The notes beneath the pieces were generated by a model. It ran no database searches and was not told where the DNA came from. It saw only the letters and a list, made by a program, of their open reading frames with translations. From Methanolobus psychrotolerans (GTDB taxonomy: Archaea; Halobacteriota; Methanosarcinia; Methanosarcinales; Methanosarcinaceae): a stretch of DNA of 64,000 nt. Position numbers and translations under genes: made by a program. The stretch lies in the NCBI RefSeq assembly GCF_002243045.1, contig NZ_MBKP01000021.1, forward strand, positions 1-64,000. Direction: 5' to 3'. Below are positions 19,770-26,462 of this stretch, piece by piece (position 1 is the first letter of the stretch; each line of letters begins with the position of its first letter).

Positions 19770-19806
19770 ATCACAGTTGTGTATTAGATGTGTTCACAAT
19801 TGTGAT
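19770..19806 (+). promoter_or_regulatory. Double operator on the tRNA-Cys promoter
   Basis: Two copies of the palindrome: ATCACAGTTGTGTA (19770-19783) and TTCACAATTGTGAT (19793-19806), centres 23 bp apart. The first directly follows a TATA box (TTATATA, 19764-19770); the second sits about where transcription should begin. tRNA-Cys starts at 19818. The layout is the same as at the pscS promoter and suggests repression. Confidence 0.75.
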
Positions 19807-19817
19807 GAAAAACGTTT

Positions 19818-19889
19818 GCCAAGGTGGCGGAGCGGCTACGCAATCGCCTGCAGAGCGATTCCATCCCGGTTCGAATCCGGGCCTTGGCT
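19818..19889 (+). tRNA. tRNA-Cys (GCA)
   Basis: GCCAAGG pairs with CCTTGGC, the anticodon loop CTGCAGA gives GCA and the T arm is CCCGGTTCGAATCCGGG. CCA is not encoded, unlike the tRNA-Arg and tRNA-Lys of this window. A small hairpin (GAGGT..ACCTC) follows the 3' end. In this organism Cys-tRNA is likely made by SepRS and SepCysS, and the pscS gene at 22.8 kb shares the same operator type. Confidence 0.96.
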
Positions 19890-20009: not shown

Positions 20010-20204
20010 ATGAAAGTAAAATTGCCATCGGGTAAAACAGAGGAAATGAACCTAGGATCGCTTACAGTTGAAGAACTGCTGCGCATTCTTGATATCATTC
20101 AGGGTGAGGTCCTTGTATCAAGGGATGGTAATATAATTCCTGAAGACACGGTACTCAACACTGATGACAATGTCCGCATAATGCAGGTAGTCTTCGGCGG
20201 CTGA
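20010..20204 (+). CDS. MoaD/ThiS-like ubiquitin-fold sulfur carrier (SAMP-like)
   Basis: 64 residues ending in the diglycine VVFGG, with the beta-grasp pattern LTVEELLRIL and VLVSRDGNIIPEDTVL. Such proteins are adenylated by an E1-like enzyme and carry sulfur as a thiocarboxylate for molybdopterin, thiamin or tRNA thiolation, or modify proteins. The MoeB-like E1 and MoaE encoded at 24.3-25.4 kb are natural partners. It lies 120 bp after tRNA-Cys and may be read from the same operator-controlled promoter, though a T-rich TATA-like stretch just upstream could serve it alone. Confidence 0.88.
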   Translation: MKVKLPSGKTEEMNLGSLTVEELLRILDIIQGEVLVSRDGNIIPEDTVLNTDDNVRIMQVVFGG

Positions 20205-20238: not shown

Positions 20239-21030
20239 TTATTCTTCATTGACTTGCAAAGCTTCAGATACAGAATCTGGTATGTCAGTGATCCTGTTTC
20301 CCCATGAGTAGACGTTCATCTTTTTGCTCCTGACAAAACCGACTATGGTCAGTCCGCGGGATTTTGCGATATCAGTCGCAAGCGTTGTTGTTGCCCCTCT
20401 TGAAACAACAACAGGGATATTTGCGGTCAGGCATTTCCTCACCATTTCTGATGAAATCCTGCCGGAACAGATCACATATGTGTCGGAAAGGTCTATATCT
20501 TTTTCAAGTGCATAGCCTATTAGCTTGTCCAGTGCATTGTGCCTGCCGATGTCCTCTACAACACATACCTTTCCTTTAGAATTGTACAGTGCGACCACAT
20601 GGATGCCACCTGTCAGCACATGAAGCTGTGAATCAAGGGCTTCTTTCACAGAATTCCGTATAGTTTCAGAATTCACGGTAAAACCAGAATTAATTTCAGG
20701 GAGCTTAGCGATGTCAAGGTATGACATTGAACCGCCACAACCGCTAAGGACTGTTTTCTTTGAGACAAGTATCTTAAAAGGATTCTCTGTCAGCACACAT
20801 GCATTGCTGCCTTCTATTTTTATGGACTCGAGCTCATCTATGTCTTTGATGATGCCTTCTGTATAAAGAAAACCAATGACGAATTCCCGGAGCATATCAT
20901 TACTTATCATTGCAGTGAGGGCATGTCTGCCGTTCACGGTAACTGCAAGCGGCATTTCCTCAATGACCGGGTGCTTTTCCAGTTCAAAGGAATCGCCATC
21001 TACTTTTATGCAGTCTACTTCCCTGTACAT
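20239..21030 (-). CDS. fdhD: FdhD, formate dehydrogenase accessory sulfurtransferase
   Basis: 263 residues. FdhD passes sulfur from a cysteine desulfurase to the molybdenum/tungsten cofactor of formate dehydrogenases and related enzymes. Typical motifs are PLAVTVNGRHALTAMIS near the N-terminus, the cysteine loop VLSGCGGS (one cysteine of the CxxC seen in E. coli) and CVVEDIGRHNALDKLIGYAL, then ICSGRISSEMVRKC. It directly follows sufS with no gap, so desulfurase and acceptor are made together. Confidence 0.93.
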   Translation of the reverse strand: MYREVDCIKVDGDSFELEKHPVIEEMPLAVTVNGRHALTAMISNDMLREFVIGFLYTEGIIKDIDELESIKIEGSNACVLTENPFKILVSKKTVLSGCGGSMSYLDIAKLPEINSGFTVNSETIRNSVKEALDSQLHVLTGGIHVVALYNSKGKVCVVEDIGRHNALDKLIGYALEKDIDLSDTYVICSGRISSEMVRKCLTANIPVVVSRGATTTLATDIAKSRGLTIVGFVRSKKMNVYSWGNRITDIPDSVSEALQVNEE

Positions 21031-22215
21031 TCATAATCTCCTTGCCAGTTCTTCCATTGTATCTATAAGGAGGTCAACTTCCTCTTCGGTGTTGTACAGA
21101 TAAAGACTTGCCCGCACAGTGCCGTTATCCAATCCAAGGTGGCTCATTAGCGGCTGACAACAATGTTCTCCTGACCTGACCATAATACCTGCCCCTTCAT
21201 CAAGGATATGTGCAATTTCATGCGGGTGCATGCCTTCAACGTTAAAGGATACTACTCCTATGCTCTCGGAGTTGTCTCCATGTCCGTAAACAGTTACACT
21301 TTTAATGTCCCGAAGTCCTTCAATCAGTCTTTTTGTGAGGTACTCTTCGTGTTGTTTTATAGCCTTCATGCCGGTGTCTTCAAGATACTCAACAGCCCTG
21401 CCAAGTCCTATCATTCCGGAAATATTCGGGGTTCCTGCCTCGTACTGCTGATAACCTTCGGCAAGAGTGTAATCATCAACAGATACTTTTCCTATCATGC
21501 CGCCGCCAAGCATCAAAGGTTTAATGTCAGCCTTTTTCATCCACAAAACCCCCGTTCCGGTGGGTCCGAGCATCTTATGTCCTGAAAAGCAAAGGTAGTC
21601 GCAGCCAAGTTCTTTTACATCAACCGGGAAATGAGGGACTGACTGCGCCCCGTCAATAAGCAGCTTCGCTCCATTCTCATGGCAGATGGCAGCTATCTCT
21701 TTAACAGGCAGCAGATTCCCGAGGACATTTGAAGCGTGGGTAACTGCAACTATCTTTGTATTCTCATTTATTGCAGTTTCAAGATCCTCCACGTCAAAAG
21801 AACCATGGGCATCTGCTCTTATTATTGATACATCCACGCCTCTTTGGCGCAGGCGTATCCATGGAAGAAGATCAGAATGATGCTCAAGTATGGTGGTGAC
21901 TACATTGTCGCCTTTGTTCCATTTTGTCCCACAGGCAACCATGTTGATGGCTTCCGTGGTATTCTTTGTCAGGACAGTTGTGCCGTTTTCCCCTCCAATG
22001 AAGCGGGACACCTTCTGGTGTGCGTGCCAGTATCTCTGTGAAGCTATGTTCGTAAGGCGATGAATACCCCGTCCTACGTTGGCACGATAGTAATGCTCAA
22101 AATCGTTCATGGAGCTGACTACCTGCTCTGGGGAAAGGCTGGTTGCTGCATTATCCATATAAGATATATCTGCAAGGATTGGAAAATCATTTCTTATTCT
22201 CTTCACATTCAGCAT
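21031..22215 (-). CDS. sufS: Cysteine desulfurase, SufS type
   Basis: 394 residues of the group II cysteine desulfurases. The PLP lysine is in CFSGHKMLGPTGTGVL, the PLP-binding aspartate in LLIDGAQSVPHFPVDV, and the catalytic cysteine in MVRSGEHCCQPLM. It releases sulfur from cysteine as a persulfide for Fe-S clusters, thiolation and FdhD. It is the middle gene of an operon HTH regulator-sufS-fdhD, with 45 bp from the regulator and none to fdhD. Confidence 0.94.
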   Translation of the reverse strand: MLNVKRIRNDFPILADISYMDNAATSLSPEQVVSSMNDFEHYYRANVGRGIHRLTNIASQRYWHAHQKVSRFIGGENGTTVLTKNTTEAINMVACGTKWNKGDNVVTTILEHHSDLLPWIRLRQRGVDVSIIRADAHGSFDVEDLETAINENTKIVAVTHASNVLGNLLPVKEIAAICHENGAKLLIDGAQSVPHFPVDVKELGCDYLCFSGHKMLGPTGTGVLWMKKADIKPLMLGGGMIGKVSVDDYTLAEGYQQYEAGTPNISGMIGLGRAVEYLEDTGMKAIKQHEEYLTKRLIEGLRDIKSVTVYGHGDNSESIGVVSFNVEGMHPHEIAHILDEGAGIMVRSGEHCCQPLMSHLGLDNGTVRASLYLYNTEEEVDLLIDTMEELARRL

Positions 22216-22260: not shown

Positions 22261-22584
22261 TTATTTCTTATTTTCGTCATTAATACATTGGAGGCCATCT
22301 TCGCGCAATTGCCTGCAAATGCCACATATCCTTCCCGCAAGGTCATCGACCTGATTATCTTTCATATCTTCTGCAAGGATATGTATGGACTTTTTAACCT
22401 CTTCATCAAATACTATGCGATATCCTCTTTTCTTGGATAGGTATTGTGAAACAGCCGAAGGCGCCATATCAAGTTCCCTGGCGATTTCCTGCTGTGAAAG
22501 CCCACAGTTTACAAGTTCTTCTGCAATTGCTGCCCGTATGGCAGGCAATACGTCCCAGACAATCATCTGACAGGGTAATTTCAT
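22261..22584 (-). CDS. HTH regulator with C-x2-C-x9-C tail, candidate Fe-S/sulfur-responsive repressor
   Basis: 107 residues. The helix-turn-helix is LSQQEIARELDMAPSAVSQY (residues 29-48), of the XRE-like COG2522 type. Cysteines lie at 5, 27, 87, 90 and 100; the last three form GRICGICRQL...LQC, suitable for Fe-S or metal binding. The gene is followed by sufS and fdhD in one operon and is preceded by the palindrome CTCACAATTGTGAA directly after its own TATA box, so self-control is likely. The same palindrome marks pscS, tRNA-Cys and nadA. Binding by this protein is inferred from position, not shown. Confidence 0.8.
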   Translation of the reverse strand: MKLPCQMIVWDVLPAIRAAIAEELVNCGLSQQEIARELDMAPSAVSQYLSKKRGYRIVFDEEVKKSIHILAEDMKDNQVDDLAGRICGICRQLREDGLQCINDENKK

Positions 22585-22635: not shown

Positions 22636-22649
22636 CTCACAATTGTGAA
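22636..22649 (-). promoter_or_regulatory. Operator at the regulator-sufS-fdhD promoter
   Basis: CTCACAATTGTGAA with core CACAATTGTG. On the minus strand it directly follows CTATAT (22649-22654), the probable TATA box, 52 bp upstream of the regulator ATG. Only one copy is seen in this promoter. Confidence 0.75.
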
Positions 22650-22720: not shown

Positions 22721-22755
22721 TTCACAATTGTTAATTTACAGTTCACAATCGTGAA
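22721..22755 (+). promoter_or_regulatory. Double operator at the pscS-moeB-moaE promoter
   Basis: TTCACAATTGTTAA (22721-22734) directly follows the TATA box TTTATATA (22713-22720). TTCACAATCGTGAA (22742-22755) lies 21 bp further, near the expected transcription start. This repeats the arrangement at the tRNA-Cys promoter. Confidence 0.8.
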
Positions 22756-22842: not shown

Positions 22843-24216
22843 ATGGATATCAGAGCACAGAAAACATTTGAAGCGCTATTTGCCCTTGAAGACATCCGTG
22901 AGATGCTGCGCCAGTCACTACCAGGTTCGACTGGTCCGGCAGATATGGATGGGTTTAACGGGCAGATACGGCATATCAGGTCGATAATAGACGACCTGGA
23001 AGCTGGGGCTGGTGTTCCTGAGGTCACTAAGATCGGCGGGACACTGGGTATTCGAAGCCATGAGGAAGAATACATCAACATCCAGCCAATGCAGGCAGCA
23101 GGAAGACTAACCCCCGAGGCCCGCAAGGCACTCATCGCATACGGGGACGGATACTCCACCTGTGACAGTTGCCGCAAGCCATTCAGACTTGATAAGATAT
23201 CCAAACCACCAATTGCTGATTTCCACCAGGAGCTCGCTGCTTTCCTGAAAATGGAGACAGCACGCGTAGTTCCGGGGGCGAGAAGAGGATTCCAGGCCGT
23301 TACGTCAAGCCTTGTAAAACCTGGAGATTCAGTGATCGTTTCATCACTGGCACATTACACCGAATTCCTTGCTGTGGAAGGTGCAGGTGGTGTTGTGAAG
23401 GAAGTTCCTCTTAACGAGAACAAGATCATTACAGCTGATGCAGTTGCAGACCGGATCGAGGATGTTACTGCTGAAACCGGCAAAGCACCTGCACTTATTA
23501 TGATCGATCATTTCGACTATCAGCTTGCTAATGAACATGATGTGAGCGGGATCGGGAAAGTTGCCCACCAGTATGATATCCCGTTCCTCTACAATGGAGC
23601 ATATACCGTAGGTGTGATGCCTGTAGATGGAAAAAAGATTGGTGCAGACTTTATCGTCGGTTCCGGTCACAAAAGTATGGCTTCTCCCGCTCCGTCAGGT
23701 GTACTCGCAACAACCGATGAATGGGCTGATGTGGTATTCAGGACTACTCAGATGACAGGTGACCTTACAAAGCGCAAATTTGGGGTCAAAGAAGTTGAGA
23801 TGCTTGGATGTACCCTCATGGGTTCTACCCTCATGGCAATGATAGCTTCTTTCCCAACGGTGAAACAGCGTACGATGAACTGGGACGTGGAAGTGAAGAA
23901 ATCTAATTTCCTCGTCGATAAACTGCTTGCAATAGAGGGAAGTGAGGTATTGTCAGAGTATCCAAGGAAGCACGCACTTTCAAAGGTGGACACCACCGGA
24001 AGCTTTGATGTGGTTGCAGGAACCCATAAAAGAAAAGGTTTCTTCCTCTCTGATGAACTCACAAAGAGGGGGATTGTAGGAGAGTTTGCCGGAGCAACAC
24101 GTTCATGGAAACTCAGTACCTATGGTCTTTCATGGGAAAAGATACATTATCTTGCAGATTCTCTTCAGGAAATTGCGGAAAAGTACGAAATAAAGGTTAA
24201 CAGGGATAATCTCTAA
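22843..24216 (+). CDS. pscS: O-phosphoseryl-tRNA(Cys):Cys-tRNA synthase (SepCysS)
   Basis: 457 residues. This PLP enzyme converts phosphoseryl-tRNA(Cys), made by SepRS, to cysteinyl-tRNA(Cys). The PLP lysine is in VGSGHKSMASPAPSG (K277). Cysteines 107 and 110 (GYSTCDSCRKP) and 323 (MLGCTLMGS) match the three essential cysteines known in the Archaeoglobus enzyme. An extra ~80-residue N-terminal region precedes the catalytic domain. I chose the ATG with GAGGT 6 bases upstream; a GTG six codons earlier is less likely. It heads an operon with the MoeB-like E1 and MoaE, and its promoter carries two operators. Confidence 0.95.
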   Translation: MDIRAQKTFEALFALEDIREMLRQSLPGSTGPADMDGFNGQIRHIRSIIDDLEAGAGVPEVTKIGGTLGIRSHEEEYINIQPMQAAGRLTPEARKALIAYGDGYSTCDSCRKPFRLDKISKPPIADFHQELAAFLKMETARVVPGARRGFQAVTSSLVKPGDSVIVSSLAHYTEFLAVEGAGGVVKEVPLNENKIITADAVADRIEDVTAETGKAPALIMIDHFDYQLANEHDVSGIGKVAHQYDIPFLYNGAYTVGVMPVDGKKIGADFIVGSGHKSMASPAPSGVLATTDEWADVVFRTTQMTGDLTKRKFGVKEVEMLGCTLMGSTLMAMIASFPTVKQRTMNWDVEVKKSNFLVDKLLAIEGSEVLSEYPRKHALSKVDTTGSFDVVAGTHKRKGFFLSDELTKRGIVGEFAGATRSWKLSTYGLSWEKIHYLADSLQEIAEKYEIKVNRDNL

Positions 24217-24258: not shown

Positions 24259-25023
24259 ATGCTAAGTAAAGAAGAGCTTGAACGTTATAGCAGGCAGATT
24301 ATGCTCTTTGGCGAGGAAGGGCAGGAGCGTTTAAAGGATGCCAGGGTTTTCATTGCAGGTGCCGGGGGGCTTGGATGTCCTATAGCACTTTATCTTGCAG
24401 CTGCCGGTGTAGGACACCTGAGGATAGCAGATCGCGACTGTGTGGAACTGACCAACCTCAACCGCCAGATACTGCACTGGGAAGCGGACATCGGCAGGGA
24501 AAAAGTACTGTCTGTTGAAGCTAAGATCCGGGCAGTCAACCCGCATATTGGTATCGAGACATTTCATGTAACAATCGATGAATCCAATGTCATGGAGCTA
24601 ATAGGTGACGCAGACCTAATAGTCGATGCCATGGATAATTATCCTGTCCGCTATCTTCTCAATCAGGTTGCCCACGAAAAAAATATACCATTAATTCATG
24701 GAGCTATCCGTGGGTTTGATGGGCAGGCAATGACAATCATCCCAGGGAAAAGTGCATGTTTTAACTGTGTTTTTCCTTCTCCCCCTCCATCGGAAGTATT
24801 TCCGGTCGTAGGTGTGACTCCGGGCATCATCGCCATGATACAGGCTAATGAGGTTATCAAATACCTGCTTGGAATTGGCGAGCTTTTGATGAACAGGCTG
24901 CTTATATGGAATGGGCTTTGCTCTGAAATGGAATACATGAAGGTATCTGCAAGACATGATTGCAAAGTATGCGGCAAAAGTGTCACTTCGCAGGAGTGTT
25001 CTCATGATAAAAATCACACATGA
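24259..25023 (+). CDS. MoeB/ThiF/HesA-type E1-like adenylyltransferase
   Basis: 254 residues. ELERYSRQIMLFGEEGQERL opens the family, then the ATP-binding VFIAGAGGLGCPIALYLAAAG, the NLNRQILH segment and DAMDNYPVRYLLN. Zinc cysteines are paired (ACFNC and CKVC). Such enzymes adenylate the C-terminal glycine of MoaD/ThiS-like carriers, probably the protein at 20.0 kb. Start at the ATG with GAGG upstream. It lies 42 bp downstream of pscS and overlaps moaE by 20 bp, so it belongs to the operator-controlled operon. Confidence 0.9.
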   Translation: MLSKEELERYSRQIMLFGEEGQERLKDARVFIAGAGGLGCPIALYLAAAGVGHLRIADRDCVELTNLNRQILHWEADIGREKVLSVEAKIRAVNPHIGIETFHVTIDESNVMELIGDADLIVDAMDNYPVRYLLNQVAHEKNIPLIHGAIRGFDGQAMTIIPGKSACFNCVFPSPPPSEVFPVVGVTPGIIAMIQANEVIKYLLGIGELLMNRLLIWNGLCSEMEYMKVSARHDCKVCGKSVTSQECSHDKNHT

Positions 25024-25411
25024 TGATTTTGATATAAATGCAATTATCTCACAGGCAAAGACAAATAAAATGGGCGCAATGGTCACTTTTCTTGGAACTG
25101 TAAGAGATGACGGTATAGACCTGCTTCATTTTGAAGCTTATGAAGATGTGGCTATCGGGGAACTTAAAACCATCTGTAACGAAGCATTCGGTAAGTTTGA
25201 CATTGAAAGCATGGATGTCATTCACCGTATAGGGGAATTGCTCGTGGGCGAGAATATTTTGCTTATACTCGTGGGTGCAGGGCATCGTAAGGAAGCATTC
25301 GCTGCTTGCGAGTATGTACTTGAGCGCATAAAAGAAAGTGTCCCTATCTGGAAAAAGGAAATAAGTGAATCTGGGGATCGCTGGATTCCGGGAGAAGCTT
25401 ATAACTCCTGA
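25004..25411 (+). CDS. moaE: Molybdopterin synthase large subunit MoaE
   Basis: 135 residues. GAMVTFLGTVRDDG, FEAYEDVAIGELKTIC, HRIGELLVGENILLI, AGHRKEAFAACEYVLERIKE and VPIWKKE follow the MoaE pattern, including the catalytic lysine region. MoaE with a thiocarboxylated MoaD inserts sulfur into precursor Z. GGAG is 7 bases before the ATG and the gene starts inside the E1-like gene. Sharing an operon with pscS ties cofactor sulfur use to cysteine supply. Confidence 0.94.
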   Translation: MIKITHDDFDINAIISQAKTNKMGAMVTFLGTVRDDGIDLLHFEAYEDVAIGELKTICNEAFGKFDIESMDVIHRIGELLVGENILLILVGAGHRKEAFAACEYVLERIKESVPIWKKEISESGDRWIPGEAYNS

Positions 25412-25459: not shown

Positions 25460-26389
25460 CTAAATGTCAAGCATTCTCTGGATTGCCATCCGGGCCCTAT
25501 CTGCGACATCTTCAGGTACTGTTACCCTGGGTGTGAGACTCACAAGTGAGTTATACACTTTCTGGAGGTCTGTTTTTTTCATATTGGTACATATGGCTTT
25601 CTGGGACAATGGATAGCACAATTTATCCGGGCAGTCTTTTTTCATCCGGTGGAGTATTCCGACTTCCGTACCGATAATGAACTCCTTTTTACTGCTTTTG
25701 CATACATGTTCTATCATGCCGGATGTTGAATACACGTAGTCTGCCAGGTCAATGACCTCTGCCCTGCATTCAGGGTGCACCAGAACTTCTGCATCAGGAT
25801 GGAGTTCACGTGCTTTCTTCACATCTTCGGGTGTTATCCTGTCATGCACAAAACAGAATCCTTCCCAGGGAAGTATCTGTTTGTCGGTGAAACGGGCCAC
25901 ATAACTTCCAAGGTTCCTGTCAGGTACGAAGATCACCCGGTCAGCATCAAGGGATTGGACCACTCTGACAGCATTTGATGATGTACAGCATATGTCGCTC
26001 TCTGCCTTCACTTGCGCTGAGGTGTTTACATAGCATACTACTGCTGCATCAGGGAACCTTTCCTTAAGGACCCTGAGTTCTCCTGCTGTGATCATCTCAG
26101 CCATGGGGCAGTTTGCATCTGCAGCAGGCAAAATAACTGTCTTTTCAGGTGAAAGGATGGCTGCCGTCTCTGCCATAAAGTCAACTCCGCAAAAAACAAT
26201 TACATCTGCACCCTGGTTCGCTGCTTTCCTGGCAAGTTCCAGGGAGTCTCCTGTGAAGTCAGCTATGTCCTGAACTTCATCTATCTGATAGTTGTGGGCA
26301 AGTATCACTGCATTATGTTCTTTTTTGAACTGAAGTATCTTATCTTTCAGTGCTTCCATGTCAAGTTTCGTTTTTTTGATATCGGTCAT
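25460..26389 (-). CDS. nadA: Quinolinate synthase NadA
   Basis: 309 residues, the usual length. It condenses iminoaspartate with dihydroxyacetone phosphate to quinolinate for NAD synthesis and needs a 4Fe-4S cluster. Motifs: AVILAHNYQIDEVQDIADF, VIVFCGVDFMAETA, VVCYVNTSAQVKAESDICCTSSNA, and EVLVHPECRAEV and GTEVGILHRM near the C-terminus, with the cluster cysteines in CGVDF, PECRAE and KAICTNM. No nadB or nadC is adjacent. One operator of the sulfur regulon lies upstream, which fits control of an Fe-S enzyme. Confidence 0.96.
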   Translation of the reverse strand: MTDIKKTKLDMEALKDKILQFKKEHNAVILAHNYQIDEVQDIADFTGDSLELARKAANQGADVIVFCGVDFMAETAAILSPEKTVILPAADANCPMAEMITAGELRVLKERFPDAAVVCYVNTSAQVKAESDICCTSSNAVRVVQSLDADRVIFVPDRNLGSYVARFTDKQILPWEGFCFVHDRITPEDVKKARELHPDAEVLVHPECRAEVIDLADYVYSTSGMIEHVCKSSKKEFIIGTEVGILHRMKKDCPDKLCYPLSQKAICTNMKKTDLQKVYNSLVSLTPRVTVPEDVADRARMAIQRMLDI

Positions 26390-26448: not shown

Positions 26449-26462
26449 TTCACAATTGTTAC
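26449..26462 (-). promoter_or_regulatory. Operator upstream of nadA
   Basis: TTCACAATTGTTAC, matching the pscS and tRNA-Cys operators, 60 bp before the nadA ATG. On the minus strand it lies about 20 bp downstream of a weak TATA-like GATATAG (26473-26480), near the expected transcription start. Confidence 0.65.

Follow-up and report, generated by a model that had tools for sequence, protein, structure and literature searches.

A cysteine-bearing HTH protein as a candidate autoregulated repressor of an inducible sulfur-supply gene set in Methanolobus psychrotolerans and related archaea

In the 64,000-nt stretch of contig NZ_MBKP01000021.1 of Methanolobus psychrotolerans (assembly GCF_002243045.1) analysed here, hereafter the window, a small helix-turn-helix (HTH) gene lies among genes of sulfur and cysteine metabolism, which raises the question of what its product controls and to what signal it responds. 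An initial annotation had read it as a candidate sulfur- or Fe-S-sensing repressor in the middle of its probable regulon. Our preferred explanation, to which we give a probability of roughly 0.75, is that this uncharacterised protein of methanogenic archaea acts as an autoregulated repressor of an inducible sulfur-supply set and responds to the state of its cysteines. The features of the window that bear on this explanation are as follows (operators are given without strand).

19770..19783: tRNA-Cys auxiliary operator, ATCACAGTTGTGTA, 3 mismatches, abutting the TATA box
19793..19806: tRNA-Cys main operator, TTCACAATTGTGAT, covering the predicted start site
19818..19889, plus strand: extra tRNA-Cys(GCA), operator-bearing (ARAGORN)
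20010..20204, plus strand: ThiS/SAMP2-like sulfur carrier, 64 aa, downstream of the tRNA-Cys gene
20239..21030, minus strand: FdhD sulfurtransferase, third operon gene (Pfam, NCBIfam)
21031..22215, minus strand: SufS-family cysteine desulfurase, second operon gene (Pfam, NCBIfam)
22261..22584, minus strand: HTH regulator, 107 aa, with C5, C87, C90 and C100 kept in orthologues (ORF, Pfam, orthologue alignment)
22636..22649: operator of the regulator-sufS-fdhD operon, CTCACAATTGTGAA, 1 mismatch
22721..22734: SepCysS operator 1, TTCACAATTGTTAA, immediately 3' of a TATA-like TTTATATA
22742..22755: SepCysS operator 2, TTCACAATCGTGAA, 21 bp from SepCysS operator 1
22843..24216, plus strand: second SepCysS (Sep-tRNA:Cys-tRNA synthase; NCBIfam, comparison with the housekeeping copy)
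24259..25023, plus strand: MoeB/ThiF-like E1 adenylyltransferase, 3' of SepCysS (Pfam, NCBIfam)
25004..25411, plus strand: MoaE-like molybdopterin synthase subunit (Pfam, NCBIfam)
25460..26389, minus strand: NadA quinolinate synthase (Pfam, NCBIfam)
26449..26462: nadA operator, TTCACAATTGTTAC, 2 mismatches

The 107-residue reading frame proved to be a real minus-strand gene. Its product (MKLPCQMIVWDVLPAIRAAIAEELVNCGLSQQEIARELDMAPSAVSQYLSKKRGYRIVFDEEVKKSIHILAEDMKDNQVDDLAGRICGICRQLREDGLQCINDENKK) belongs to the HTH DNA-binding proteins by the curated Pfam cut-offs, with matches to the generic families HTH_3 (24.4 bits against 23) and HTH_24 (24 against 21.9) only, and no NCBIfam model scored above its cut-off. 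Neither Pfam nor NCBIfam gave an Rrf2 match, such as an IscR relative should give, at E values of up to 0.1; no DeoR-type family, as for SufR, was among its matches in the two collections; and ArsR/SmtB-type models stayed below cut-off (HTH_metalloreg, 19.6 bits against 55; HTH_5, 20.7 against 22). Its family numbers are presumably COG2522/arCOG00017. The predicted model is helical throughout (mean pLDDT 82.5), with a long N-terminal helix that begins beside C5, an HTH at residues 31-49 (helices 31-37 and 42-49) and a C-terminal part made of helices 61-75 and 82-95. Helix 82-95 contains the CxxC pair, and C100 lies in a tail modelled at low confidence. Single-sequence and profile searches of the PDB returned generic HTH or designed-repeat matches only, a PDB fold search with the model gave nothing at E <= 0.001 and no recognised effector domain, and PADLOC gave weak HTH matches only. 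The suggestion that the fold differs from those of IscR and SufR agrees with these searches. EnfR/Tfx was also considered as a match and ruled out, being of another family, fold and site.

The regulator gene heads a tight operon, as had been annotated, followed by the SufS-type desulfurase gene after a gap of 45 bp and by fdhD after a gap of 0 bp. The palindrome described at its own promoter was likewise confirmed, with CTCACAATTGTGAA standing 65 bp upstream of the ATG. When at most one mismatch to the palindrome TTCACAATTGTGAA was allowed, the window contained four copies against 0.0 expected from 60 Markov simulations, and the whole genome contained five, against one for a reversed-pattern control. 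All five genomic sites stand upstream of sulfur genes and belong to four units, namely regulator-sufS-fdhD, SepCysS-moeB-moaE (two sites), tRNA-Cys with the ThiS/SAMP2-like carrier, and a TusA-DsrE-cysteine desulfurase operon outside the window (contig C65, locus L007). The remaining two-mismatch sites of the genome, among those retrieved, fell mostly within coding sequence, and no operator was found at the sufCB locus. The regulon is wider than the initial annotation had it, since it also takes in tRNA-Cys, SepCysS, nadA and the off-window tusA-dsrE-desulfurase operon.

Operator and regulator occur together across genomes. The 34 regulator-bearing genomes contained 165 sites against 22 for the control (mean 4.9 vs 0.65), whereas 18 genomes without the regulator contained 13 against 10 (mean 0.7 vs 0.6; Mann-Whitney p ~2e-8 for site counts with and without the regulator, uncorrected for relatedness). 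The regulator-less genomes are related to one another, and the duplicated target genes too are missing from many of them, so that the absence of operators is not fully independent and the test is weakened; in one of them (G057) all four sites lie in coding or insertion-element sequence. A site stands 45-105 bp before the ATG of the regulator's own gene in most orthologues, including those of the GC-richer Methanomicrobiales, and in Methanoregula it is typically perfect and lies at about -61. In both Methanosarcinaceae and Methanomicrobiales, sites are found about 60 bp upstream of the regulator and over the starts of tRNA-Cys genes. No close match was found upstream of the regulator in Methanomethylovorans, Methanospirillum and the loci L136, L157, L170 and L193. 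In five Methanolobus genomes, 31 of 35 sites, counted by hand, precede sulfur genes or the regulator (ThiM, TusA, Thi4, SepCysS, NadA, sufS, tRNA-Cys/ThiS or the regulator itself). Targets across loci, named in part by HMM, include SepCysS, IscS/SufS, MoeB, NadA, TusA, Thi4, ThiM and LarE, and further MetY-like and CysK-like proteins, PdxS, HcyBio and APS reductase, with CysRS among them in Methanosalsum natronophilum. An operator at the regulator's own gene, together with common operators at sulfur genes that are lost with the regulator, is the pattern of an autoregulated sulfur regulon. At the level of sequence, comparative genomics establishes the operator, the regulon, the autoregulatory site, the linkage of operator and regulator and the conserved cysteines, and it strongly supports the earlier view of a repressor placed amid its regulon, as does the start-site geometry.

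Some operators stand before genes of other kinds. Two of the other four Methanolobus sites precede a gene for a Cache-domain methyl-accepting chemotaxis receptor (L096, L105), and the same receptor type lies behind a two-mismatch operator, 199 bp away, in a third Methanolobus genome (L266), hinting at a tie between chemotaxis and sulfur state. A second small winged-helix regulator gene is found at operators in L127, L063, L099 and L106 and adjoins a TusA gene in the first two.

Among tRNA genes, the operator is specific to tRNA-Cys: all 33 operator-associated tRNAs were tRNA-Cys, and none of the 19 other tRNAs in the examined loci had an operator. The TATA box usually lies about 55 bp upstream of the tRNA-Cys gene, the main operator starts 22-28 bp past the TATA end, and an auxiliary site is common, either against the TATA box or 13-14 bp ahead of the main operator. 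tRNA-Cys genes are of two kinds, constitutive ones (GCCAAGGTGGCGGAGCGG...), which carry the operator in none of the genomes read, including those without the regulator, and operator-bearing second copies, some of them strongly divergent. In M. psychrotolerans the operator-bearing copy is the one in the window; a constitutive copy lies on contig C102, and contig ends hold two partial matches. SepCysS is duplicated in a comparable manner. A housekeeping SepCysS with 42-47% identity to the window's copy is present in every genome checked, and the window type (68-100% identity) was seen in regulator-bearing genomes only, although not in all of them. M. psychrotolerans carries both, its housekeeping copy (G000:C81:103536) being 46% identical to that of the window. 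In one genome (G118) a tRNA-Cys gene lies 13 bp upstream of SepCysS, and another (G137) has two NadA genes, one adjoining the regulator. This pattern of duplicate SepCysS, tRNA-Cys and NadA genes suggests that the putative repressor controls, at least partly, a second, inducible route of tRNA-dependent cysteine formation.

In several Methanolobus species (L019, L020, L023, L024, L135) the operator-bearing tRNA-Cys gene has turned into a tRNA-like sequence, located beyond the regulator on the opposite strand, that retains its promoter, both operators, T arm and the greater part of the acceptor stem and has lost the anticodon region; neither ARAGORN nor Rfam called it a tRNA in these loci, and in L018 it has almost vanished. 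It may be a product of decay or a tRNA-like RNA of a new kind. The second SepCysS is mostly missing where the operator tRNA is degenerate (G033, G065, G079, G095) and mostly present where it is intact (G000, G075, G111), with G037 and probably G119 as exceptions. Two further loci (L110, L265) contain clusters of 3-5 divergent tRNA-Cys genes, most with perfect operators, adjoining genes for an uncharacterised radical SAM protein and an ABC ATPase, both likewise placed behind operators.

Conservation of the cysteines was assessed in 110 orthologues (99 distinct sequences) from Methanosarcinaceae and Methanomicrobiales. C5 and C87 were present in all 110, C90 in 109 and C100 in 108, and C5, C87 and C90 remained invariant when distant paralogue groups were added. 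The four cysteines match the three to four conserved ligands of the Fe-S regulator class. The initial annotation had pointed to GRICGICRQL...LQC (C87, C90, C100), which is present in the reading frame and conserved as it required, and had added C27, which is kept in only 62 of the 110 orthologues and is therefore no conserved ligand; the invariant C5 had gone unlisted.

The predicted mechanism is as follows. The regulator, probably as a dimer, would bind TTCACAATTGTGAA at sulfur and cysteine genes, either on the start site or next to the TATA box, and thereby keep an inducible sulfur-supply set off, comprising here the extra tRNA-Cys and sulfur carrier, the second SepCysS, SufS/FdhD, MoeB/MoaE, NadA and the TusA-DsrE-desulfurase operon. 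When the supply of sulfur, cysteine or Fe-S clusters falls, the state of C5, C87, C90 and C100 would change, the regulator would leave the DNA, and the set would be made. Operators so placed imply occlusion of the start site, and from this position we infer repression; binding to DNA, the dimer and the cysteines as sensor are likewise predicted. The regulon content (tRNA-Cys, SepCysS, Thi4, ThiM, TusA, LarE, CysK, MetY and HcyBio) points to a sulfur or cysteine supply signal rather than to iron or cluster damage, which lends the sulfur-sensing part of the initial annotation indirect support.

The regulator has two further groups of relatives. Group B paralogues (35-40% identity) carry C5, a CxxC and a further CxxC, form a separate clade (support 100/99) and are not linked to the TTCACAATTGTGAA operator. 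Their gene stands directly after iscS-iscU in Methanosarcinales (L002, L250-L262), including in genomes that lack group A, and is by our reading mostly followed by an NreA-like gene. A common palindrome upstream of iscS was looked for and not found. A third group (order-level family f3, L246-L249) adjoins YcaO-TfuA genes, associated with thioamide formation, and MoaD/MoaE-like genes. The contexts of the three groups (operator, isc, YcaO-TfuA) thus suggest that the whole family tracks sulfur chemistry.

Several alternatives concern the signal. An Fe-S cluster on C5, C87, C90 and C100 could be what is sensed, with the holo protein repressing cluster-supply genes as IscR does. The four conserved cysteines, a CxxC and two distant ones, would suit this, as would the isc neighbourhood of the group B paralogue and the Fe-S-linked targets NadA and IscU; however, the targets belong mostly to sulfur and cysteine metabolism rather than to iron uptake or cluster scaffolds, no operator stands at the sufCB locus of M. 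psychrotolerans, and four cysteines would serve a Zn(Cys)4 site equally well. We consider a cluster plausible at somewhat below even odds, and group B would be the group to consider first as a genuine Fe-S sensor. Sensing might instead proceed without a cluster, through a thiol, persulfide or sulfide switch in which sulfane sulfur from desulfurases modifies the CxxC or C100 and sets DNA affinity. Many targets handle persulfide (SufS, TusA, DsrE, FdhD, ThiS, LarE) and cysteines near the tail and the N-terminus are compatible with a switch, but C5 is kept in both paralogue groups, which better suits a fixed ligand than a two-cysteine switch, and we regard this possibility as unlikely. Somewhat more doubtful still is the view that the cysteines bind a structural metal (Zn) while some small molecule, for example cysteine, O-phosphoserine or homocysteine, serves as the effector: cysteine and methionine biosynthesis does stand at the centre of the regulon (SepCysS, tRNA-Cys, CysRS, CysK, MetY, HcyBio), yet in a protein of 107 aa the roughly 45 residues that lie beyond the HTH offer little space for a ligand pocket, and no known effector domain emerged from the fold search.

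Other alternatives concern the mode of action. Activation is a very improbable reading, for although some sites lie right beside the TATA box, a place from which an archaeal activator might work as well, the main site begins 22-28 bp 3' of it and over the start site, the position of a repressor. The palindrome might also belong to another factor, with the HTH protein as a co-regulated neighbour, given that binding by the regulator is a prediction and that several targets also adjoin other wHTH genes (e.g. L127). Operators come and go with the regulator gene across genomes, are kept together with it in two orders and precede it at about -60, all of which makes this the least probable alternative considered.

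An autoregulated, cysteine-responsive repressor has parallels in known systems. IscR, of the bacterial Rrf2 family, is a small cysteine-bearing HTH repressor that heads an operon with a cysteine desulfurase and regulates itself; our regulator is also a small HTH protein with cysteines, first in a desulfurase operon and with its own operator, but it has no Rrf2 match, a different cysteine spacing, a regulon with tRNA-Cys and SepCysS, and a cluster that is hypothetical. SufR, a DeoR-type HTH protein of cyanobacteria and actinobacteria, is a cysteine-containing repressor encoded beside suf genes. The regulator resembles it in its cysteines and its suf-type neighbour and differs in having no DeoR-family match and in the operator-free suf scaffold locus. 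In archaea, SurR of Thermococcales is a sulfur-response regulator with a CxxC. SurR is reported to control genes of energy metabolism (PMC12162507), whereas the targets here, compared by description, are anabolic sulfur transfer and tRNA-Cys. MsvR is reported to be a methanogen redox regulator whose DNA binding is modulated by cysteines (PMC3729527), and by description its regulon is not the same.

Parts of the target set have been described before. Mukai et al. (2017; PMC5424206) reported that tRNA-Cys and sulfur genes adjoin some SepCysS genes of clade VII, and these loci may include the second SepCysS of the window; the main text of that paper nowhere uses the word stem 'regulat'. In M. mazei, SepRS and CysRS favour different tRNA-Cys isoacceptors, and partly orthogonal systems were suggested (PMC8762117). 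A study of the M. barkeri Fe/S proteome reported higher SufS on pyrite or cysteine than on sulfide and left the regulation unsettled. We found no earlier description of the regulator or operator in the open-access literature searched.

The analysis provides a specific gene, an exact operator and a list of targets from two orders, which can be tested in genetically tractable Methanosarcina, and it shows a tRNA gene that carries an operator of a specific metabolic kind. We tentatively propose, at odds clearly below even, that these proteins form a new archaeal Fe-S- or persulfide-sensing repressor family of three groups, in which a cysteine sensor would control tRNA-dependent cysteine synthesis via a dedicated tRNA gene, the second tRNA-Cys and second SepCysS making up an inducible pathway to cysteine separate from the housekeeping one. 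The results suggest a reason for the duplicate tRNA-Cys and SepCysS genes of these archaea and bear on the old question of what purpose redundant routes to Cys-tRNA serve.
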